Positions 506 through 37,990 of a stretch of 39,623 bases of DNA are shown here, in pieces. The notes beneath the pieces are model-generated. The model made no database searches. It was not told the DNA's origin and worked only from the letters and a program-made list of their open reading frames with translations. Numbering within the stretch: the stretch's first letter is position 1; each line of letters starts with the position of its first letter. The position numbers and the translations under genes are program-made. This stretch comes from Candidatus Methanophagales archaeon. Its GTDB lineage: Archaea > Halobacteriota > Syntropharchaeia > Alkanophagales > Methanospirareceae. The stretch covers positions 1-39,623 of the forward strand of contig JAPWVK010000113.1 of assembly GCA_029241965.1 (NCBI GenBank). Reading direction: 5' to 3'.

Positions 506-1111
506 ATGGAAGGAAATGTTTATAATTTTAAAAATGAGATTAAAACACAAATAGAAGAAAGTATAGCGCCTAAAAAGGAGATTATTGATAATGATAAATA
601 CATTGATGTTATCAATGATACAGCAGGAGAGATTATTGTGGCATATAAAAAAAATAAAAAAGTTCTTTGGTTTGGAAATGGGGGAAGCGCTGCAGATGCT
701 CAACATTTAGCCTGTGAGCTTGTAAGTAAGTTTTGTATGGAAAGAGAGGCTATTCCATCTATTGCTCTCAATACAAATACCTCGATATTAACGGCGGTTT
801 CAAACGATTATGGTTATGATAAAGTGTTTGAAAGGCAGATTGAAGCATTTGCTGAGAAGGGAGACGTTTTAATTGGTATTACCACAAGTGGTGAATCATT
901 AAATGTGATCAGGGCTTTAAAATCGGGTAAGAAGATGGGTGCTGTTACAGTAGCGTTTACTGGCAAAAGAGCAGATAAGCTGAAGGATTTTGTTGACTAT
1001 TTAATCACTGTTCCTTCAGATAATACACCACATATTCAAGAATCTCACATCATGATTGGACATATTATCTGTTATTTAGTTGAGAAAGAACTATTTGGGA
1101 ATGGAAAATGA
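506..1111 (+). CDS. gmhA: Sedoheptulose 7-phosphate isomerase (SIS domain)
   Basis: GNGGSAADAQHLACELVSKF and TSGES motifs; adjacent to gmhB, hddA and hddC homologues. Confidence 0.9.
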   Translation: MEGNVYNFKNEIKTQIEESIAPKKEIIDNDKYIDVINDTAGEIIVAYKKNKKVLWFGNGGSAADAQHLACELVSKFCMEREAIPSIALNTNTSILTAVSNDYGYDKVFERQIEAFAEKGDVLIGITTSGESLNVIRALKSGKKMGAVTVAFTGKRADKLKDFVDYLITVPSDNTPHIQESHIMIGHIICYLVEKELFGNGK

Positions 1112-1758
1112 ATAAAGCAGTTTTTCTTGATAGAGATGGAGTTATAACACAAGACCCTCCACATTATGCACATAGAATAGACCAACTAAAGCTAATTCCA
1201 AAATCTGCTGACGCTATTAGATTGTTAAATGAAAATGGATTTAAAGTTGTTGTAGTGTCGAATCAATCTGGAGTGGCAAGAGGATATTATCAAGAAAAGG
1301 ACGTAGAGATATACAATAGTGCGATGGAAAAAGAATTAGAAGAGAGAGGGGCTTATATTGATGCGATATATTATTGTCCACACTATCCCGAAGCGAAGAT
1401 AGAAGCATATAGAATGGATTGCGATTGTAGAAAGCCCAAGCCGGGGATGTTAAAACGAGCAGAAAAGGATTTGGACCTGGATTTGAAACGGTCTTTTCTG
1501 ATAGGGGATAAGTTAATTGATGTAGAAGCGGGTTATAGAGCAGGCTGTAAAACCATATTGGTGCTTACTGGTCATGGTAATGATGAATCGAAAAAAAATG
1601 CGACGATGAATATAAAACCAAAATATGTCTCAAAAGATTTACATACCGCAAGTCAAATAATAAATGGAACCACAAGATTGCACAGATTTCCACAAGAAAA
1701 TATGAAGATGCATGATGTAAAAGAGATGGTGGAAGGTAAAAGATACCATGATGAATAA
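1108..1758 (+). CDS. gmhB: D-glycero-manno-heptose 1,7-bisphosphate phosphatase (HAD, HisB-N type)
   Basis: FLDRDGVI, SNQSGVARGYY, CDCRKPKPGML, GDKLIDVEAG; overlaps gmhA stop. Confidence 0.88.
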   Translation: MNKAVFLDRDGVITQDPPHYAHRIDQLKLIPKSADAIRLLNENGFKVVVVSNQSGVARGYYQEKDVEIYNSAMEKELEERGAYIDAIYYCPHYPEAKIEAYRMDCDCRKPKPGMLKRAEKDLDLDLKRSFLIGDKLIDVEAGYRAGCKTILVLTGHGNDESKKNATMNIKPKYVSKDLHTASQIINGTTRLHRFPQENMKMHDVKEMVEGKRYHDE

Positions 1759-2719
1759 AGATGCTAAGATATTTATTGCTGAACACGAGGGGATGATTGG
1801 CGCCGCTCTGATTAGATATCTGAAAACAGCAGGTTTCGATAACCTCATTACTAAATCCCTCTCGCAACTCGATTTGACCAATCAGAATGATGTGCGTAAA
1901 TTTTTTCTACGGGAAGAGCCAGAATATGTTTTTTTAGCTACTGCTGAGGAAGGTGGGATTCTTGCAAATATAGCCTATTCTGCCGATCTTATTTACACGA
2001 ACCTGCAAATACAAGCCAATTTAATCCATTTTGCTTGGGAAGCAAAAGTAAAGAAATTACTTTTTCTGGGTAGTTCTTGTATTTATCCCAAGTTTTGCCC
2101 ACAACCGATGAATGAAGAAGCTTTGCTAACCGGTTCACTGGAACCGACCAATGAGGCTTATGCTATTGCAAAAATCGCGGGAATAAAAATGTGCCAGGCA
2201 CATAACAAGCAACACGATACTAATTTTATCTCCGTTATCCCGACGAATATCTATGGTCCACGTGACAATTTTGACTTAAAAACTTCGCATGTGATTCCAG
2301 CCCTTATTCGTAAATTTCACGAAGCAAAGGCAGGGAAAAAGGGGGAAGTAACGATCTGGGGCACCGGGACTCCACGCCGGGAGTTTCTTTATGTTGATGA
2401 CTTTGTCGATGCGTGTTTATTTTTAATGAACAATTATAATCAACCGGGAATAATTAATGTGGGTTATGGTAAAGATATTTCTATTAAGGAACTGGCATTG
2501 ATGATAAAAGAGGTTACGGAGTTTGATGGTAAATTGATTTTTGACGAAACCAAACCAGATGGTATGCCGAATAAACTATTAGATGTAAGTAAAATGAGTG
2601 CGTTGGGTTGGAGACCGAAGATAAATTTGAGGGAAGGTCTGGGGAGGACTTATGAATGGTTTAAAAAAAAACTTTCTTTAAAAAAGAAAGCTTTACCAAA
2701 GAAATATAATACTTTATAA
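1748..2719 (+). CDS. GDP-L-fucose synthase/GDP-colitose synthase-like epimerase/reductase (SDR)
   Basis: GSSCIYPK, EPTNEAYAIAKIAGIK, PTNIYGPRDNFD, SHVIPALIRKFHEA, KPDGMPNKLLDVSKM: Fcl/WcaG signature. Confidence 0.88.
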   Translation: MMNKDAKIFIAEHEGMIGAALIRYLKTAGFDNLITKSLSQLDLTNQNDVRKFFLREEPEYVFLATAEEGGILANIAYSADLIYTNLQIQANLIHFAWEAKVKKLLFLGSSCIYPKFCPQPMNEEALLTGSLEPTNEAYAIAKIAGIKMCQAHNKQHDTNFISVIPTNIYGPRDNFDLKTSHVIPALIRKFHEAKAGKKGEVTIWGTGTPRREFLYVDDFVDACLFLMNNYNQPGIINVGYGKDISIKELALMIKEVTEFDGKLIFDETKPDGMPNKLLDVSKMSALGWRPKINLREGLGRTYEWFKKKLSLKKKALPKKYNTL

Positions 2720-2746: not shown

Positions 2747-3328
2747 ATGAATAAAGAAGATTTAATAGAATTTGAAGAAGAGATAAAGCAGTTGTTTCTT
2801 GATAAGATGATAAGATCTCCGGTACATTTATCAGTTGGTGGCGAAGAGCCTCTGATAGAAATTTTCAAGGAAGTTAAGGAGGATGACTGGGTATTTTCAA
2901 CGCACAGAAGTCATTATCATGCGCTGCTCAAAGGGATAAACAGAGGATGGCTAAAGAACGAGATAATCGAGAACAGAAGCATACATATCATGAGTAAAGA
3001 ACATAAATTCTTTACATCAGCTATTATGGGTGGCATAGCGCCAATTGCAGTTGGCGTAGCCATGGCTTTGAAGAGAAAGGGGTCAAAAAATAAGGTATGG
3101 GTATTTATGGGGGACATGAGTGCTGAGATGGGGGTTGTCCATGAGTCTATGAAATATGCGGCAAGGCACAGTTTACCAATCGTCTGGGTAGTTGAGGATA
3201 ACGAGCTGAGCGTTAATACGCCAACCCAAGAGGTATGGGGCAAAAGCGAAGTTGAGCCAAAAGTTATAAGGTACAAATATCAGAGAGTGTATCCGCACCA
3301 GGGAGTGGGAGAGTGGGTGGTATTTTGA
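2747..3328 (+). CDS. TPP-dependent enzyme, E1-alpha/transketolase N-half-like (minimal)
   Basis: STHRSHYHALLKG, GGIAPIAVGVAMALKRKG, GDMSAEMG...VVEDNELSVNTP (degenerate GDG-X-NN TPP motif). Confidence 0.8.
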   Translation: MNKEDLIEFEEEIKQLFLDKMIRSPVHLSVGGEEPLIEIFKEVKEDDWVFSTHRSHYHALLKGINRGWLKNEIIENRSIHIMSKEHKFFTSAIMGGIAPIAVGVAMALKRKGSKNKVWVFMGDMSAEMGVVHESMKYAARHSLPIVWVVEDNELSVNTPTQEVWGKSEVEPKVIRYKYQRVYPHQGVGEWVVF

Positions 3329-3861
3329 CATACAAAGATGAGCTAACCCGAGCTATGGAGCTGCTTACTAAGGATGAGCGGGTCATATTTCTGGGTCAAA
3401 ATATAGTTTATCCCGGCAGCATCATGTCTTCATCGCTTCAGGAGGTACCAAATTCGAAGAAGGTAGAACTTCCTTTAATTGAGGACATGCAAATGGGAAT
3501 GTCTATTGGGCTATCCTTAGAAGGTTATATACCCGTTTCAATCTATCCGAGGATGGATTTTTTGGTAATAGCTACAAATCAATTGGTGAATCATCTGGAC
3601 AAGATAGAGGAAATGTCATGTGGACGATTTAAACCTAAAGTAATTATCAGAACAGCAATTGGGAGCACAAACCCGCTTTATCCAGGGATACAGCATTGCT
3701 CGGATTACACAGAAGCGTTTAAGTGCATGTTGAAAAATGTAGAAGTCATAAAACTAACAGAAAGTAAAGAGATAGTTCCTGCATACAACCATGCTCTGGA
3801 GAGGAGAGACGGGAGGTCTACTCTACTGATAGAGGTAGCAGACCTCTATTCCAATCCGTAG
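3313..3861 (+). CDS. TPP-dependent enzyme, E1-beta/transketolase pyrimidine-domain-like (minimal)
   Basis: Overlaps the upstream alpha-like gene by 16 bp; ELPLIEDMQMGMSIGLSLEGYIPVSIYPRMDFL resembles the Pyr domain; GTG at 3313 or TTG at 3325 as start. Confidence 0.75.
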   Translation: MGGILTYKDELTRAMELLTKDERVIFLGQNIVYPGSIMSSSLQEVPNSKKVELPLIEDMQMGMSIGLSLEGYIPVSIYPRMDFLVIATNQLVNHLDKIEEMSCGRFKPKVIIRTAIGSTNPLYPGIQHCSDYTEAFKCMLKNVEVIKLTESKEIVPAYNHALERRDGRSTLLIEVADLYSNP

Positions 3862-3874
3862 GAGGAAAGATAAA

Positions 3875-4807
3875 ATGAAAATATTGGTTACTGGAGGAGC
3901 GGGATACATTGGGTCTATATTAGTTCCCACGCTACTAAAAAAAGGGCATGAAGTAATCGTTGTAGATAATTTTTTGTATAACCAGACTTCGCTGTTAGAT
4001 TGCTGCCATGATGAGAAATTAACTGTTATTCGTGGAGATGCAAGAGATAAAGAACTTATTTCCAAATGTTTAAAAGATGTTGATGCAGTTTTCCCTCTGG
4101 CATGCATTGTTAGTATGCCTGCTTGTGCCAAAAAACCAGTTGAAGCGCGAACCATCAACTTTGATGCAATCAAGATGATATTAGAGTTGCGAAGCAAAGA
4201 TCAGATAATCATTTTCCCTACCACGAATAGTGGATATGGAATAGGGCAGAAGGGAATTTACTGCACTGAAGAAACCCCTCTTAATCCCGTTTCTCTCTAT
4301 GGCCGCTTAAAAGTGGAGGCAGAGAAGATAGTTTTGGAAGCTGGCAATTGTATCACCCTGCGACTTGCCACGGTATTTGGGATTAGCCCACGCATGCGTT
4401 TAGACCTTTTAGTTAACGATTTCACTTACCGGGCAGTTACAGATAGATTTTTAGTTCTTTTTGAATCTCATTTCAAGAGGAATTATATACACATCCGTGA
4501 TGTAGCTAAAGCATTTATTCACTGCCTTGAAAACTTCGATAAGATGAAAGACGAGCCCTACAATGTCGGATTAAGTGATGCCAATCTAAGCAAATGGGAA
4601 CTCTGTGAGGAGATTAAGAAACAGGTTCCTGATTTTTATTTTGTAGAAGCCGAAGTAGGAGAAGACCCGGATAAAAGAGATTATATTGTGAGCAACGAAA
4701 AGATTGAAGCCACCGGCTTCAAGCATGATTATTCATTACAGCAGGGCATTGCAGAACTGATAAAAGGGTATCAGGTTATAAGAATAAATCAATTTTCTAA
4801 CATTTAG
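3875..4807 (+). CDS. NAD-dependent sugar epimerase/dehydratase (SDR)
   Basis: MKILVTGGAGYIGSILVPTLLKKGHEV; SLYGRLKVEAEK (YxxxK analogue). Confidence 0.85.
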   Translation: MKILVTGGAGYIGSILVPTLLKKGHEVIVVDNFLYNQTSLLDCCHDEKLTVIRGDARDKELISKCLKDVDAVFPLACIVSMPACAKKPVEARTINFDAIKMILELRSKDQIIIFPTTNSGYGIGQKGIYCTEETPLNPVSLYGRLKVEAEKIVLEAGNCITLRLATVFGISPRMRLDLLVNDFTYRAVTDRFLVLFESHFKRNYIHIRDVAKAFIHCLENFDKMKDEPYNVGLSDANLSKWELCEEIKKQVPDFYFVEAEVGEDPDKRDYIVSNEKIEATGFKHDYSLQQGIAELIKGYQVIRINQFSNI

Positions 4808-4817
4808 GAGATTTTTT

Positions 4818-6293
4818 ATGACACAAGAACTGGATTTGTTATTAGTTAACGCTGGTGGTCGGGGACAGGTATATGGTGAGTTAGGCTCTTCACTTTCTGG
4901 AATTGAGCCTCCCCTTTGGTGTGGGTTGCTCGCGGGATTCATTCGAGAATATGGATACTCGGTAAAAATAGTAGATGCAGAGGCAGAAAATTGGAGTCCT
5001 GGGCACGTGGCAGAGAAGATTGCCGAATATAACCCCCTTCTGGCGGGCATTATTGTACTTGGAGCAAATCCTTCTGCATCTTCCACTCCTAAGATGACGG
5101 CTGTGAACGAAACACTCACGGCACTGAAAAAGAAAGCGCCGCATATCAAAACAATCCTTGGCGGTCTTCATCCATCAGCGCTTCCTGAACGAACTCTAAG
5201 AGAGGAAAAGGTTGATTTTGTTTGTCCGGGAGAAGGTTTTTATACCATCCTACAACTTTTGGAAGTGTTGAAGGCAGGCGAAGATAAGAGAGATTATGAA
5301 ATTAAAGGTCTCTGGTATATTAAAGATGACAAGGTAATATCAAATCCCATGCCACCATTAATCGAGAATCTTGACGAACTTCCTTTTGTCGCATGGGACC
5401 TTCTACCGATGGATAAGTACCGAGCTCACAATTGGCACTGTTTCGACCATATTGACCAGAGGCAGCCCTATGGAGTCATCTACACGAGTTTAGGGTGCCC
5501 CTTCAATTGTAGCTATTGTAATATCCATGCACTCTACAATGGTAAACCCGGCATCCGTTATCGCAGTCCAGAAAAAGTAGTAGAGGAGATAGACTTTCTT
5601 GTAAAGAATTATAATATAAGAAACTTTAAGGTTATTGATGAGTTGTTTGTCCTTAGAAAAGACCGTGTTATGCGTATTTGCGACCTCATCATCGAAGGTG
5701 GCTATGATTTGAATATGTGGGCTTATGCAAGGGTTGATACAGTCAGCGAGCCTCTATTGAAGAAAATGAAACAAGCGGGTTTCAATTGGATTGCTTTTGG
5801 GATTGAATCGGCAAACAAGAAAGTTCGTCAGGACGTTTCCAAAAGAATTACCCATAAGAAAATACAAAAAGCTGTTGAGATGACACATGCCGCCGGGATT
5901 CACATCATTGGTAATTTTATATTTGGTCTTCCCGAGGATGATTTTGAAACGATGCAAGAAACCTTGAATATGGCGAAGGAGTTTAATTTTGAATACGTAA
6001 ACTTTTATACAGCTATGGCCTACCCCGGTTCTCAGTTATACGAAGATGCCTTGCGGGAAGGCATTAAATTGCCAGAACAATGGCAGGGATATGCACAATA
6101 TTCTGAGGATACATTACCGTTACCAACAAAACATTTATCAGCTGCAGAAGTTCTACGTTTCCGAGATAATGCCTTTAAGGAATACTTTAATAATCCAGAT
6201 TACATAGAAATGATCAGAGAAAAGTTTGGTCCTAAGGTTGTAGAACACATTGAGGAGATGCTTAAAGATGAAATTCACAGGAAGTTTGTCTAA
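4818..6293 (+). CDS. B12-binding domain radical SAM protein
   Basis: N-terminal cobalamin-binding-like domain; CPFNCSYCN (CX3CX2C); GNFIFGLPEDDFET. Confidence 0.88.
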   Translation: MTQELDLLLVNAGGRGQVYGELGSSLSGIEPPLWCGLLAGFIREYGYSVKIVDAEAENWSPGHVAEKIAEYNPLLAGIIVLGANPSASSTPKMTAVNETLTALKKKAPHIKTILGGLHPSALPERTLREEKVDFVCPGEGFYTILQLLEVLKAGEDKRDYEIKGLWYIKDDKVISNPMPPLIENLDELPFVAWDLLPMDKYRAHNWHCFDHIDQRQPYGVIYTSLGCPFNCSYCNIHALYNGKPGIRYRSPEKVVEEIDFLVKNYNIRNFKVIDELFVLRKDRVMRICDLIIEGGYDLNMWAYARVDTVSEPLLKKMKQAGFNWIAFGIESANKKVRQDVSKRITHKKIQKAVEMTHAAGIHIIGNFIFGLPEDDFETMQETLNMAKEFNFEYVNFYTAMAYPGSQLYEDALREGIKLPEQWQGYAQYSEDTLPLPTKHLSAAEVLRFRDNAFKEYFNNPDYIEMIREKFGPKVVEHIEEMLKDEIHRKFV

Positions 6294-6318
6294 ACTAAAT
6301 TTCTGGAGGGGGTTTTAT

Positions 6319-7320
6319 ATGATAATAAGCAGAACACCATTTCGAATATCCTTTTTCGGCGGAGGAACAGATTATCCGGTATGGTATAATGAACACGGAG
6401 GAGCAGTGCTTGCAACTTCAATAAACAAGTATTGCTATATCACCCTTCGGTATCTTCCACCATTCTTCGATTACAAGTATCGCATAGTCTATTCTAAGCA
6501 TGAAATGGTCAAAGATATTTCTGAAATACAACATCCATCAGTCCGGGAAACACTCAGGTTTATGAATTGGGACGACCGTGGAGTTGAGATACACCATGAC
6601 GCTGATTTACCTGCAAGGACTGGTCTTGGTTCCAGTTCGGCATTTACCGTATGCCTGCTTAATGCGCTGTACGCCTTAAAAGGCAAAATGGTAACCAAAA
6701 GACAGTTAGCCTTAGAGGCAATACATATAGAGCAGGATAGAATAAAAGAGAATGTTGGGTCACAGGATCAGACAACTGCCGCTTTCGGAGGATTTAATAA
6801 AATTGAATTCGGCGGTGAGCAACACATACAAGTTCAGCCAATAACGTTAAATGCAGAAAAACTACAACTTTTTCAGGAGCATCTGCTGCTTTTTTTTACC
6901 GGTTTTGCGAGGATCGCCTCGGAAATCGCAGGTGAGCAGATAAAAAAAACGCCCAAGAAGGAAAATGAGTTGCGTAGAATGTCGGAAATGGTAGATGAAG
7001 CCATGAGTATTCTCAATGGCAACAGCTCGGACCTCACCGATTTTGGTAGACTTATGCACGAAACCTGGATGATTAAGCGAAGTTTGACAACTAAGATTAC
7101 AACACCACAGATAGATAAAATCTATGAAACTGCTTTAGAAGCAGGAGCTTTGGGTGGGAAATTATTAGGTGCTGGTGGTGGTGGGTTCATACTGTTTTTT
7201 GTAGCGCCCGAAGACCAGCCTAAAGTGAAAGAGAAATTGAAAGAGTTATTATATGTGCCATTCAAATTCGAGAATTTAGGTAGTCAGATAATATATTATG
7301 CACCACCAGATAATTTTTGA
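6319..7320 (+). CDS. hddA: D-glycero-alpha-D-manno-heptose-7-phosphate kinase-like GHMP kinase
   Basis: SRTPFRISFFGGGTDYPVWY, GLGSSSAFTVCLLNAL, GKLLGAGGGGFILFF; preferred start 6319 (RBS ggaggg) rather than 6250. Confidence 0.85.
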   Translation: MIISRTPFRISFFGGGTDYPVWYNEHGGAVLATSINKYCYITLRYLPPFFDYKYRIVYSKHEMVKDISEIQHPSVRETLRFMNWDDRGVEIHHDADLPARTGLGSSSAFTVCLLNALYALKGKMVTKRQLALEAIHIEQDRIKENVGSQDQTTAAFGGFNKIEFGGEQHIQVQPITLNAEKLQLFQEHLLLFFTGFARIASEIAGEQIKKTPKKENELRRMSEMVDEAMSILNGNSSDLTDFGRLMHETWMIKRSLTTKITTPQIDKIYETALEAGALGGKLLGAGGGGFILFFVAPEDQPKVKEKLKELLYVPFKFENLGSQIIYYAPPDNF

Positions 7321-7594
7321 TAGTATGCAATGGCATATAATCGGATCTGCGGCTGCACTTCTGACGATGTTCGGATTTGTGCCACAGGCGATAAAAATGT
7401 ATCGCACAAAATCTGTCGAGGATGTGAGCTTTCCCATGTTATTTCAGTTCAGCGTGGGAGTTTTTTTATGGATATTGTATGGAATTCATTTACAGGATTT
7501 TATCATTGTTGTAGCAAATCTTGTTACTTTTATTATCCTTATCATAGCAATAAGTTTATATTTTTTATATCATGTCAAAAATACCGAAGTGTAA
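7298..7594 (+). CDS. SemiSWEET / MtN3-like PQ-loop sugar transporter
   Basis: ~98 aa with three hydrophobic segments and GFVPQAIKMYRTKSVEDVSFPMLFQFSVGVFLWILYGI (PQ-loop). Start 7298 or 7325. Confidence 0.87.
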   Translation: MHHQIIFDSMQWHIIGSAAALLTMFGFVPQAIKMYRTKSVEDVSFPMLFQFSVGVFLWILYGIHLQDFIIVVANLVTFIILIIAISLYFLYHVKNTEV

Positions 7595-7603
7595 AGGAAA
7601 TCG

Positions 7604-8374
7604 ATGATGGGAACGGTAGAGAATATGTATGATTTAGAAGAAATTGATGTTGTAATCCTCTGTGGAGGATTAGGTAAGAGGCTGAGACCAGTTGTTTTCG
7701 GTCAGCCGAAAGTATTAGCAAAAATAGGGAAAAAGGCATTCCTGGATATTCTAATAGACAATCTTCTATTGTATGGGTTTAAAAATATAATTCTAAGTGT
7801 TGGCTATCTGAAAGAGCAGATAAAAGAGCTGATAAAAAACCATTTTGGTTGTGAGGAAGATTATAACATCGTATTTTCAGAAGAAGAAGAACCTTTGGGA
7901 ACAGGTGGAGCGTTAAAGAAAGCGAAAACACTGATTAGAAGCAATCCTTTTATGGTCATGAACGGAGATTCAATCTGTAGCGTAGACTTCAGAAGTTTTG
8001 TTGATTTCCACAGTGAAAAGAAGGCTTTGCTCTCTCTCGTTTTGGTGCGTTCAAAAACGGCTGAAGATTACGGAAGTGTCGCCTTAGATGATTCACAAAG
8101 AATAACAGACTTCGAGGAGAAGGTGACTGACGGAAGCGAAAACATAATAAATGCCGGAGTATATCTTATGGAAAAGGATATTTTTTCTTTTATGCCTGAG
8201 CAAAACAGGTTCTCGCTGGAGTATGAGTTGTTCCCAAAAATCATTGATGAAAATAGATGCTATGGCTTTTTAACAGAAAGCGAATTCATAGATATCGGAA
8301 CACCAGAGAGATATGAGAAAGCAATTGATCTACTAAAAAGTGATACCTTTAAATATAGTCAGAGATCAAAATGA
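7604..8374 (+). CDS. hddC: Heptose-1-phosphate guanylyltransferase-like nucleotidyltransferase
   Basis: ILCGGLGKRLRPVVFGQPKVLAKIGKKAFLD, GTGGALKKAK, NGDSICSVD. Confidence 0.82.
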   Translation: MMGTVENMYDLEEIDVVILCGGLGKRLRPVVFGQPKVLAKIGKKAFLDILIDNLLLYGFKNIILSVGYLKEQIKELIKNHFGCEEDYNIVFSEEEEPLGTGGALKKAKTLIRSNPFMVMNGDSICSVDFRSFVDFHSEKKALLSLVLVRSKTAEDYGSVALDDSQRITDFEEKVTDGSENIINAGVYLMEKDIFSFMPEQNRFSLEYELFPKIIDENRCYGFLTESEFIDIGTPERYEKAIDLLKSDTFKYSQRSK

Positions 8375-8388
8375 ATAGGAGATAAAAA

Positions 8389-9513
8389 ATGCGAATAAAT
8401 TTTGGCGAACTGGTAATAGGAGACATAGCAAAGGAATATTTACAGCGGGTTATAGATAAGAATTGGGCTTCAGAAGGAGACAATGTAAAGGAATTCGAGG
8501 AGGAATTCGCTGCACATTTCGGGTATAAACATGCCATTGCTACGAGTTCAGGCACGGATGCGAATATTTGCTCTTGCGCGGCATTATATGATTTTGGCGC
8601 AAAAAGGGGAGACGAAATTATCACGCCAGCATTATGCTTTGTAGCCACTCCGAATTCAATCTTAGCCGCAGGGTTTATCCCTAAGTTCGTTGACATCGAG
8701 TTGGAAAACCTCAATATTGATCCTCATAAGATTGAAGCGGCTATCACTGATAGGACTAAAGCTATTATGGTTGTTCATACCATGGGAAAACCATGCGACA
8801 TGGATTCTATTCTGAAAATTGCTCAAAAGTATGATTTGATGGTTATAGAAGACGCATGTGAAGCGCATGGAGCTACCTATAAAGGCAAAGTGGTTGGTAC
8901 AATTGGGGATATGGGAACATTTAGCTTTTATACCGCACATCAGATAGTTTGTGGGGAAGGCGGTATCGTTGCCACCGATGATGATGAAATAGCTGATGTG
9001 GTCAGATCGGTAAAATCACATGGGCGTCCTCCAGACAGCATATACTTCGATTTCCAGCGTGTCGGTTTCAATTCGAAGATGAATGACATGGAAGCTGCTC
9101 TCGGGCTTGAAGGCATCGAACTCTTTGAGAAAAACTTCGACAAACGCAAAAATAATTTATATAAGTTACTTGAATTGACCAAAGAACTATCAGATTATTG
9201 CTATTTTATCAAAGAAGAAGAGCATGAGAAAATAAGCCCTCATGCTTTCCCGTTGGTTCTGAAAGATGAAAAATATGATCGTGATAGACTTTACAACTAC
9301 TTGGAATCTAAAGGTATTCAATGTAAAACATTATTTGGAAGTTTGCCGACTCAACATAAAGCATTCAAATTCCTAAATTATCAATCGGGTCAATTTCCAG
9401 TAGCCGAATATGTTGGAAAGAATGGATTGCATTTCGGTATGCATCAGTATATAAACGATGATGATTTAGTCTATATCAGTGATAGCTTGAAAGGCTATTT
9501 CAAATATTTTTGA
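8389..9513 (+). CDS. DegT/DnrJ/EryC1/StrS-fold enzyme, predicted ColD-like 3-dehydratase
   Basis: Family motifs ATSSGTDAN, EDACEAHGA, FSFYTAHQIVCGEGG; His184 (codon cat 8938-8940) occupies the PLP-lysine position. Confidence 0.85.
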   Translation: MRINFGELVIGDIAKEYLQRVIDKNWASEGDNVKEFEEEFAAHFGYKHAIATSSGTDANICSCAALYDFGAKRGDEIITPALCFVATPNSILAAGFIPKFVDIELENLNIDPHKIEAAITDRTKAIMVVHTMGKPCDMDSILKIAQKYDLMVIEDACEAHGATYKGKVVGTIGDMGTFSFYTAHQIVCGEGGIVATDDDEIADVVRSVKSHGRPPDSIYFDFQRVGFNSKMNDMEAALGLEGIELFEKNFDKRKNNLYKLLELTKELSDYCYFIKEEEHEKISPHAFPLVLKDEKYDRDRLYNYLESKGIQCKTLFGSLPTQHKAFKFLNYQSGQFPVAEYVGKNGLHFGMHQYINDDDLVYISDSLKGYFKYF

Positions 9514-35068: not shown

Positions 35069-37990
35069 ATGAGTAAAATAAGAATAAAAATGAAAAGTAT
35101 TGATAAATCATCTTTGGTCTACGGCGCTCTATTAGCTTTGATATTCGGATTATCGCTTTACATAAGGGCTCTACCTTATGACAGCATTTTTAGTGGTGCG
35201 TTCGTGCGATTCGGTGGGAACGATCCGTGGTATAATATGAGATTGGTGGAGAACACGCTGCATAACTTCCCGCATCGCATCTACTTCGATGCCCTCTCAC
35301 AATACCCGCATGGCACAATCATCCCTTTTGCACCCCTCTTTGATTATTCACTAGCGGTTATTATCTGGCTAATCGGGCTTGGAAATCCTTACGCAACTTT
35401 AGGAGAACATGGAATAGAAGTAATAGGCGCGTGGTTCCCTGCAGTTTTAGGTGCGCTTACCGTTATTCCGGTTTATTTCATCGGAAAAGAGTTATGGGGC
35501 AGGAATGCCGGTATTCTTTCCGCAGCGTTAATCGCGATTCTCCCAGGGCAATTCTTGTCACGTTCTCTGTTAGGATTCACGGACCATCACGTGGCCGAGA
35601 CGCTATTCAGCACGATAGCAATGCTATTCCTTATTCTTGCGATAAAGAGTGCGAAGGAAAATGAGATAACGTTTTATTCTGTGTCAGATAAGGATTGGGG
35701 TTCGCTGAAGAAGCCATTGATTTATTCACTGTTTGGCGGTATCTTCTTCGGGTGTTTCTACCTTTCCTGGAAAGGCGCGCCTCTATTCATATTCATCTTG
35801 CTCATCTACGCAGTGGTTCAGCACATCATTGACCATGTGAGGGGTAAAAGTACGGATTATCTCTGTATTGTGGGCATACCAATTTTCCTTGTTTCTCTGG
35901 TTATGATTATCCCCGCGCTTCATCCCGGGTCATTGACAACATTTCATGTTATCTCGCTTGTGCTTGGCATGGTCGTATTCGGGGTTTTGGGTGCTATCTC
36001 GTTCTTGATGAACTACAAGAAGATAGACACTTATGGATATCCTATTGTGATATTGGTACTTGGGATTTTGTCTTTAGTGCTTTTGAATGCTATAAATCCG
36101 TCTTTATATTCTTCGCTGACAGGCAGCCTGCGTATATTCTTTCCCACGGAGACACAGCTAACCGTAGCGGAGATTCACCCTATGCACATTGTTTCGCCAT
36201 ATACCGACAAAATTGCTGATGGTGAGGCATGGCGTTGGTTCACCACTAGCTTCTTCATTGCATTCATCGGTTTCGCATGGCTTGGCTATAAGATAGCGCG
36301 AAAATTCCGCGCGGAGGAGATTTTGTTTGTCGTGTGGAGTGTAGTAATACTATCCGCTTGTTGGAACCCACTCACGGGTGGAGGCCAAAACAGATTCGCA
36401 GCGTATTATGCGGTGAATGCTGCGCTTCTATGCGGATTCGTGTCCTGGAAGATACTCGAGTTTGTCGCGTTTAGAGGTGCTGGGACGGAAGAAGGGACAG
36501 GGGAGAAGATAAAGGGAAAGAAGAAAGGAGGTGCGGGTGTACAACAGAAGGTAAAAGAAAAAACGAAACCAGCAGTGGATAAAGAGGAGCACACAAGCGT
36601 AGCTAAAATAAAACGGTATTTACGTGCGGACATCTTCATCACTTCAATTTTAATTGGTTTGGTTATTTTTTACCCTCCTTTAACGACATCTTTAGCAACT
36701 GCAAAATACGGTGGTGGACCGGAATATGACTGGTACGAATCGCTTTCGTGGATGAAAGAGAATACACCTGACCCGGGTGTGGATTATTACGCTTTGTACG
36801 AAGAGCCGCCTGAGGGTGAGGATTATGATTATCCGCCAGAGGCATATTCGATAATAAGCTGGTGGGATTATGGTCATTGGATAACAAGAATAGCGCATCG
36901 TATTCCGGTTGCAAATCCATTCCAAAGAGGCATTGGGGGACCGCATCAGGGCGATAAGCCCGGGGCTTGTGTGTTCTTCATCACAAATGATGCAAACGAA
37001 GCGAACGAAGTTGCGGATGCGCTCGGTGTTCGATACGTGGTAAGTGATTTCATGATGGCGGATGTATGGAGCGCCTATTACAACAAATATGCTGCGATGA
37101 CTGTGTGGGCCGGGAACTCTCAATATTATAACACACTTCCGTATTACTACAATACGATGGAAGCACGTTTGCATGTATTTGACGGTGCAAGTGTGGATGT
37201 AGGTGGCGGAACCATATCTGCTTTAGAACACTATCGGTTAGTGCATGAGTCCCCTACTTTTATACTTCCATTGATGATTATGAATGAAAGTACAGGGAGT
37301 GGCTATTGGATACATAATTCCGGCAATTATAAAGCGACAGAGTCACAAGCACAGATACTTCACGGACACTTGTTCAGTATGCCTGCGGGTGTGGGAATAG
37401 AAAAGATTTTGGATGAGGGAGTTCTGCCAGAGATGCTGAAGGCCACATTCAACTCCACCGGCCTTCCTATTTCGGTGGATACTTCTATTGTGAAAAGTGA
37501 CAAAGGCGTATGGACAATTAGGGATGAAGGAAATAAAAATACGTTTTTGATAAAGGAGAAGGATGGATTGCTAAACGTTTACCTTTACGGTGTCAGAACA
37601 GGACAGCCAAATATGAAAGCATGGACACCTGAATATATAGAGCCAATGAGTTTCGTGAAGGTGTTTGAGTACGTAAAGGGCGCGAGGATAGAAGGAACTG
37701 CACCTAATGGCTCGATAGTGGAGATAGCCACAAATGTAAGCACGAATCAGGGTAGAAATTTTGTGTATACCGAGCGGGTGATGTCAAACGGTACATACAA
37801 GTTCGTTGTGCCGTATTCGACAGAAGGGCCGATAGAAGGCGGCACGAATTTCGACGTGTTTGCATCTTCTTATATATTAAGGGCAGGGCAGGCGGGGGAA
37901 AACGCAACGGTGATGTGGACTGTGGAGAAGGAAGTAAGTGTGCCGGAAGCAGCGGTGATGGACGGTAAAACGATAAGAGCGGATTTATAG
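35069..37990 (+). CDS. aglB: Oligosaccharyltransferase, STT3/AglB family
   Basis: FGGNDPWYNMRLVEN, FTDHHVAETLFS, YSIISWWDYGHWITRIAHR (WWDYG); multiple TM segments. Confidence 0.95.
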   Translation: MSKIRIKMKSIDKSSLVYGALLALIFGLSLYIRALPYDSIFSGAFVRFGGNDPWYNMRLVENTLHNFPHRIYFDALSQYPHGTIIPFAPLFDYSLAVIIWLIGLGNPYATLGEHGIEVIGAWFPAVLGALTVIPVYFIGKELWGRNAGILSAALIAILPGQFLSRSLLGFTDHHVAETLFSTIAMLFLILAIKSAKENEITFYSVSDKDWGSLKKPLIYSLFGGIFFGCFYLSWKGAPLFIFILLIYAVVQHIIDHVRGKSTDYLCIVGIPIFLVSLVMIIPALHPGSLTTFHVISLVLGMVVFGVLGAISFLMNYKKIDTYGYPIVILVLGILSLVLLNAINPSLYSSLTGSLRIFFPTETQLTVAEIHPMHIVSPYTDKIADGEAWRWFTTSFFIAFIGFAWLGYKIARKFRAEEILFVVWSVVILSACWNPLTGGGQNRFAAYYAVNAALLCGFVSWKILEFVAFRGAGTEEGTGEKIKGKKKGGAGVQQKVKEKTKPAVDKEEHTSVAKIKRYLRADIFITSILIGLVIFYPPLTTSLATAKYGGGPEYDWYESLSWMKENTPDPGVDYYALYEEPPEGEDYDYPPEAYSIISWWDYGHWITRIAHRIPVANPFQRGIGGPHQGDKPGACVFFITNDANEANEVADALGVRYVVSDFMMADVWSAYYNKYAAMTVWAGNSQYYNTLPYYYNTMEARLHVFDGASVDVGGGTISALEHYRLVHESPTFILPLMIMNESTGSGYWIHNSGNYKATESQAQILHGHLFSMPAGVGIEKILDEGVLPEMLKATFNSTGLPISVDTSIVKSDKGVWTIRDEGNKNTFLIKEKDGLLNVYLYGVRTGQPNMKAWTPEYIEPMSFVKVFEYVKGARIEGTAPNGSIVEIATNVSTNQGRNFVYTERVMSNGTYKFVVPYSTEGPIEGGTNFDVFASSYILRAGQAGENATVMWTVEKEVSVPEAAVMDGKTIRADL

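Follow-up and report, generated by a model that had tools for sequence, protein, structure and literature searches.

An archaeal heptose operon that carries two short genes for an E1-type thiamine enzyme raises the question of what reaction such a reduced enzyme performs among sugar genes. The sequence-only reading of the window (the whole stretch of 39,623 nucleotides analyzed here) had offered two answers: the supply of sedoheptulose 7-phosphate to GmhA, and the addition of a carbon unit to a deoxy-keto sugar, as carried out by YerE. The interpretation favored here, drawn from sequence and held at a probability of roughly 60%, is that the pair would act as a minimal aKADH2-type carboligase: it would take a C2 unit off pyruvate and attach it to a keto sugar derived from GDP-heptose. 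The family and the class of chemistry are well supported; what we infer is a heterotetramer that takes pyruvate as its donor and C4 of a GDP-heptose derivative as its acceptor, together with the product formed. The operon consists of the following genes.

506 to 1111, forward strand: gmhA-like phosphoheptose isomerase, 201 aa (TIGR00441 gmhA, 1.4e-54, 184 bits against a cut-off of 209)
1108 to 1758, forward strand: gmhB-like heptose bisphosphate phosphatase (PRK08942, 3.2e-58, over the cut-off)
1748 to 2719, forward strand: Fcl/GDP-fucose-synthase-like SDR of the 4-keto reductase/epimerase type (NF047922, 7e-137, 456 bits against a cut-off of 500)
2747 to 3328, forward strand: PP (diphosphate-binding) subunit of the minimal ThDP enzyme, 193 aa (Pfam E1_dh, 3.4e-20)
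3325 to 3861, forward strand: Pyr subunit, 178 aa from TTG 3325 or 182 aa from GTG 3313 (E1-beta models, 5e-11)
3875 to 4807, forward strand: extended SDR, GalE-like, candidate epimerase/reductase (Epimerase, 4e-32)
4818 to 6293, forward strand: B12-binding radical SAM enzyme, by family matches
6313 to 7320, forward strand: HddA-like GHMP heptose-7-phosphate kinase (best match NF049969 HddA, 4e-42, under the equivalog cut-off)
7604 to 8374, forward strand: HddC-like heptose-1-phosphate guanylyltransferase (best match NF049965 HddC, 7.5e-45, under the cut-off)
8389 to 9513, forward strand: DegT-family NDP-sugar 3-dehydratase, ColD/RfbH-like (best match the RfbH model, under the cut-off)

Both open reading frames of the pair were confirmed (PP 2747–3328; Pyr 3313/3325–3861), and the overlap and the 193 aa length initially described for them hold. 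The 182 aa given for the Pyr gene is less likely: the Pyr proteins of relatives begin at 'MxYKD', which makes the TTG at 3325 (178 aa) the likelier start, with a 4-nt overlap (TTGA) onto the PP stop. The domain assignments of the sequence-only reading, E1-alpha-like PP and E1-beta-like Pyr, were borne out. The best PDB sequence for the PP gene is human PDH E1-alpha, and the Pyr gene matches E1-beta models at 5e-11 and Transket_pyr at 2.2e-5, slightly short of the Pfam cut-off. The main matches of the pair are to E1 families, with decarboxylase-type TPP_enzyme_C as a weaker match only. The C-terminal transketolase/E1-beta domain is missing, as had been proposed; a domain search found Transketolase_C in neither open reading frame, and its only occurrences genome-wide are in the ordinary split transketolase, encoded on a different contig, and in a single additional protein of contig C189. 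The pair members of 216 related loci likewise have no Transketolase_C-like region, and because the same two lengths and the absent domain recur across these loci, the pair is not a chance arrangement. The idea that a separate nearby gene supplies the absent domain was rejected, as a Transketolase_C-like open reading frame occurs in 7 loci only, always in a separate protein of ~300 aa. The pair is therefore related to E1 and would work like an E1, but without a C domain in its members it is not an ordinary E1.

The catalytic residues point the same way. With Pyr numbered from GTG 3313, the near-invariant positions of the family in PP are H27, R54, H56, GD122–123, N152, and H184, and those in Pyr are E57 and H128. 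H27 (92/92), E57 (92/92), and H128 (93/93) have identical letters in 8/8 E1 outgroups, as do the other near-invariant residues with the exception of H184, shared by 6/8. Both the sequence and fold matches (PDH E1-alpha, E1-beta) and the residues held in common with the E1 outgroups (H27, R54, E57, H128) argue for a putative E1-type rather than transketolase-type enzyme. A loss of TPP-binding residues, which was to count against a ThDP enzyme, is not seen: E57, N152 (92/93), and the GD motif (88/93, the remainder having Glu at 123) are conserved across the family. The third residue of this motif is Met (GDM) in 73/93 rows and Gly (GDG) in 18/93; GDM is an unusual variant of the ThDP motif and sets most of clade B of the family tree apart from clade A. 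The window PP carries Gly32 where 91/92 members have Asn. As for structure prediction, which had been envisaged for the heterotetramer, the models cover the PP chain and a fused chain. For the window PP, the AlphaFold model (pLDDT 87) has human PDH E1-alpha as its best PDB fold match, and the model of the fused form (pLDDT 80) contains both domains and nothing after Pyr. Single-chain transketolase and DXS rank first in the fold search with the fused model, which we read as a chain-level effect, since each carries the two domains on a single polypeptide.

Hundreds of phages share the pair, as do a few dozen microbes with sequenced genomes. Alignment-based scans of viral contigs confirmed at least 588 and at least 548 stretches, and an alignment-based scan of 84,980 genomes recovered 48 family loci along with nine ordinary E1 loci, the latter used as an outgroup. 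A viral scan with the single PP sequence alone gave no match; the Pyr query, and then alignments, found the relatives. Among the organisms given in record titles are Nanoarchaeota, Pacearchaeota, Patescibacteria, Pelagibacter, Chloroflexi, and Nitrospirae. The related loci examined number 216 (100 after dereplication). Two forms occur, two genes of ~200 + 180 aa or a single fused gene of ~400 aa, with PP typically ~180–220 aa and Pyr ~160–200 aa against 318–371 and 336–358 aa in the E1 outgroup. The fused form is present in several MAGs and in cyanophages P-TIM68 and S-SM2 (381/402 aa; tblastn), where neighbors are annotated as kinase, epimerase, nucleotidyltransferase, and phosphoheptose isomerase, and its occurrence suggests that the two domains function together in the absence of a C domain. 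A further relative was detected in a 735-kb phage genome (tblastn). The two window genes (7e-50 and 1e-33), as well as the fused cyanophage gene, match PHROG 34187 (405 positions), a phage family labeled 'unknown function' in PHROGs. A literature search on the 'transketolase central region' gene that phages carry within sugar clusters found nothing relevant.

Phylogeny had been suggested as a check against transketolase and E1, and the family separates from both (SH-aLRT 99) in a quick tree of 102 rows with PP and Pyr joined, which has long outgroup branches and E1 and transketolase as its outgroups, the AviB/Pau/Kb sequences being left out. Clade A (20 rows) contains the fused forms and neighbors such as SPASM radical SAM, Zn-dependent alcohol dehydrogenase, and PfkB kinase genes, and clade B (73 rows) includes the window. 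The host genome is archaeal (ribosomal protein eL32), and no relative was found in 394 genomes of the same phylum, so the pair looks acquired; GC content does not differ between the operon (0.388) and the rest of the window (0.382). Beyond the operon, the window holds an STT3 oligosaccharyltransferase and PseB/PseC-like and other nucleotide-sugar genes, which indicates a chromosomal surface-glycan region and not a virus. The STT3 protein (35069–37990) is of the archaeosortase-associated type (TIGR04154, 725 bits).

The gene neighborhood ties the family to activated sugars. Of the 100 loci left after dereplication, 87 carry an NDP-sugar gene of some kind (counting SDRs) within 6 kb of the pair. 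Over the same distance, a kinase, isomerase, phosphatase, or nucleotidyltransferase of heptose-pathway-like type is present in 48, a B12-radical SAM gene in 38, an RmlC-like gene in 33, and a GMD/UXS-type SDR in 25. In viral loci such as L110, L114, and L132 the B12-binding radical SAM gene lies directly upstream of PP; the window gene at 4818–6293 is of this kind. The most specific signal comes from DegT-family proteins in which the PLP-binding lysine is replaced by histidine, a change that marks NDP-sugar 3-dehydratases (PMC8987622). The window DegT, located 4.5 kb downstream of the pair and not adjacent to it, has this histidine (His184, FYTAHQI), and the dereplicated loci have 27 DegT with His versus 4 with Lys within 6 kb. 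DegT genes adjoining the pair in viral loci have His in 41/41, a set that was not dereplicated and does not represent 41 independent cases, and those 0.3–5 kb from the pair (viral and cellular) comprise 34 His versus 5 Lys. When context is ignored, the DegT proteins of 20 related archaeal genomes are 25 Lys, with the window's own gene as the sole His. The L112 DegT has ColD as its best PDB match, its His aligned with that of ColD. An RfbH-type [2Fe-2S] cysteine cluster (CxC..C), a feature of RfbH that ColD lacks, was found in none of 90 DegT proteins, which fits ColD-type, GDP-sugar enzymes. Mapped on the tree, DegT-His requires 12 changes, at least 7 forced by starred branches, so the association has been gained or lost repeatedly.

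These observations bear on the second of the initial proposals, that of a YerE-like step on a deoxy-keto sugar. It gains support because 3-dehydratases (ColD/E1) make the 3-deoxy-4-keto sugar that YerE uses, and a DegT-His gene is found in the operon and adjoining viral pairs; YerE itself is of a different ThDP superfamily. In the reaction proposed here, ThDP would sit between the PP subunit, whose GD...N residues would bind metal and diphosphate, and the Pyr subunit, whose Glu57 would activate the cofactor. The pair would decarboxylate a 2-oxo acid, most likely pyruvate, and join the hydroxyethyl/acetyl carbanion to a nucleotide-activated deoxy-keto sugar at its ketone, most likely that at C4; this would yield a C2-branched sugar whose new ketone is possibly reduced by a neighboring SDR. 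The sugar in the window probably derives from GDP-D-glycero-D-manno-heptose, made via GmhA, HddA, GmhB, and HddC, although of the operon neighbors all except gmhB score under NCBI equivalog cut-offs. This GDP-heptose would be 4,6-dehydrated by an enzyme not found in the assembly and 3-deoxygenated by the DegT-His protein, to give GDP-3,6-dideoxy-4-keto-heptose as the presumed acceptor, and the branched sugar would end in archaeal surface glycans. Specifically, a GDP-mannose-type 4,6-dehydratase was not found in the archaeal assembly (93% complete; the contig starts just upstream of gmhA), the SDR at 3875–4807 is by its active-site segment TTNSGYG not of the 4,6-dehydratase type, and the other SDRs on the contig look, by family matches, like LegB/RmlB/PseB types for other sugars. 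The order gmhB-SDR-PP-Pyr-SDR-rSAM-hddA-hddC-DegT(His) is kept on a second genome contig (L173). Between hddA and hddC, the window encodes a 98-aa membrane protein (7298–7594) that, read by eye, resembles SemiSWEET-type sugar transporters.

It is possible, if unlikely, that the pair is a sugar-acting ThDP carboligase whose donor is instead a hydroxy-2-oxo acid or a ketose, which would leave a C2-glycolyl branch or a longer one, or whose acceptor is a C3 ketone or a free sugar phosphate. In favor of this reading, the two clades have different neighbors and DegT-His is absent within 6 kb in 73/100 loci; ErwE, of the YerE group, takes longer hydroxylated donors, and transketolases have been proposed for hydroxyacetyl transfer in miharamycin (PMC12247030). 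Clade A, with its radical SAM, Zn-ADH, and PfkB neighbors, may use another acceptor. The fused form in L201, L203, L205, L208, L214, L216, L007, and L008 follows a Zn-dependent alcohol dehydrogenase gene and has a PfkB kinase near, and such loci probably involve a different sugar than the DegT-His loci. Against this reading, the E1-like branching enzymes described so far all use C2 units, KbDH-alpha/beta is restricted to pyruvate (PMC12247030), and the E1 residues are conserved throughout the family. As a separate observation, an acetolactate-synthase-like ThDP protein of ~559 aa is encoded near the pair in L190 (8257–9933), L183, L188, L192, L200, L204, L116, and L162; L190 and L192 additionally have, close by, a transketolase-like pair with PP of ~260 aa and Pyr/C of ~300 aa, placing three ThDP enzymes in one glycan cluster.

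The first of the initial proposals, a minimal transketolase that would provide GmhA with sedoheptulose 7-phosphate or a different ketose phosphate, is disfavored and now appears quite improbable. While gmhA is the first gene of the operon and a few relatives (L011, L030, L064) lie beside GmhA, a PfkB/HldE1-like kinase, and HldE2, gmhA occurs in only 6/100 dereplicated loci, and the pair has neither the catalytic residues nor the full three-domain length of a transketolase. The proposal also needs a genome that lacks a transketolase of its own, which was rejected: contig C109 (loci L001/L003) encodes in one cluster a split transketolase (272 + 315 aa), TalC, and a D-glycero-beta-D-manno-heptose-7-phosphate kinase (RfaE-domain-I), a ready source of sedoheptulose 7-phosphate. 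This transketolase has Ala at the H27 position and Ser at the H128 position. An E1-like dehydrogenase/decarboxylase remnant that feeds acyl groups to lipoyl or carrier-protein systems, forming no C–C bond to a sugar, would be permitted by E1 homology by itself but is highly improbable, given that no E2, lipoyl, or carrier-protein gene was recognized among the annotated recurrent neighbor clusters, NDP-sugar genes dominate the neighborhood, and the C domain is absent throughout the family.

Returning to the C2 carboligase, a broader reading can be put forward tentatively: a previously unrecognized, phage-dominated family of two-domain ThDP carboligases, with ~380 aa per active site and lacking a C-terminal domain, could make C2-branched nucleotide sugars, including branched, nine-carbon heptoses (e.g., 3,6-dideoxy-4-C-acetyl/hydroxyethyl-heptose), which phages would attach to the surfaces of hosts or virions and the archaeon would have acquired for its surface glycans. 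The proposed carboligase role offers a testable function for the abundant phage family PHROG 34187 and suggests that sugar branching, a chemistry otherwise met mostly in LPS and antibiotics, is also encoded by phages. The pair may be the smallest E1-type ThDP carboligase, in which case the C domain would be dispensable, a point of interest for enzyme evolution, and a minimal carboligase might be of use in making tertiary alcohols.

Several known systems are close to the pair. YerE, in yersiniose A synthesis, converts pyruvate and CDP-3,6-dideoxy-4-keto-glucose to a C4-acetyl sugar (PMC12247030), and the reaction expected of the pair is alike, downstream of a Lys-to-His 3-dehydratase and directed to surface glycans (PMC12247030, PMC8987622). 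However, YerE is a single-chain protein of the decarboxylase superfamily, whereas the pair matches E1 and does not have a YerE-like single-chain, acetolactate-synthase-like architecture. The split transketolase (6yak, and that on C109) likewise divides a PP half and a Pyr half between two genes, but at 272 + 315 aa it retains the C domain and lacks the H27 and H128 of the window family. E1-like pairs of deoxysugar clusters (AviB1/AviB2, Pau11/Pau12, KbDH-alpha/beta, and EvdU5/EvdS3) have been proposed or shown to attach a pyruvate-derived C2 unit to a keto sugar (PMC12247030, PMC4425429, PMC10338323), and AviB1/AviB2 and KbDH-alpha/beta are better analogues than YerE (PMC12247030). These aKADH2/AviB-type pairs are, like the window pair, two-gene E1-alpha/E1-beta-like ThDP enzymes. 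They differ in size, with Pau11 and Pau12 at the E1 lengths of 325 and 345 aa against ~200 + 180 aa and no transketolase C domain in the window family, and in distribution, as AviB-type pairs belong to actinomycete antibiotic clusters and the window family to phages, archaea, Patescibacteria, and Pelagibacter. Unlike the AviB-type pairs, the window family is tied to 3-dehydratase and heptose genes.
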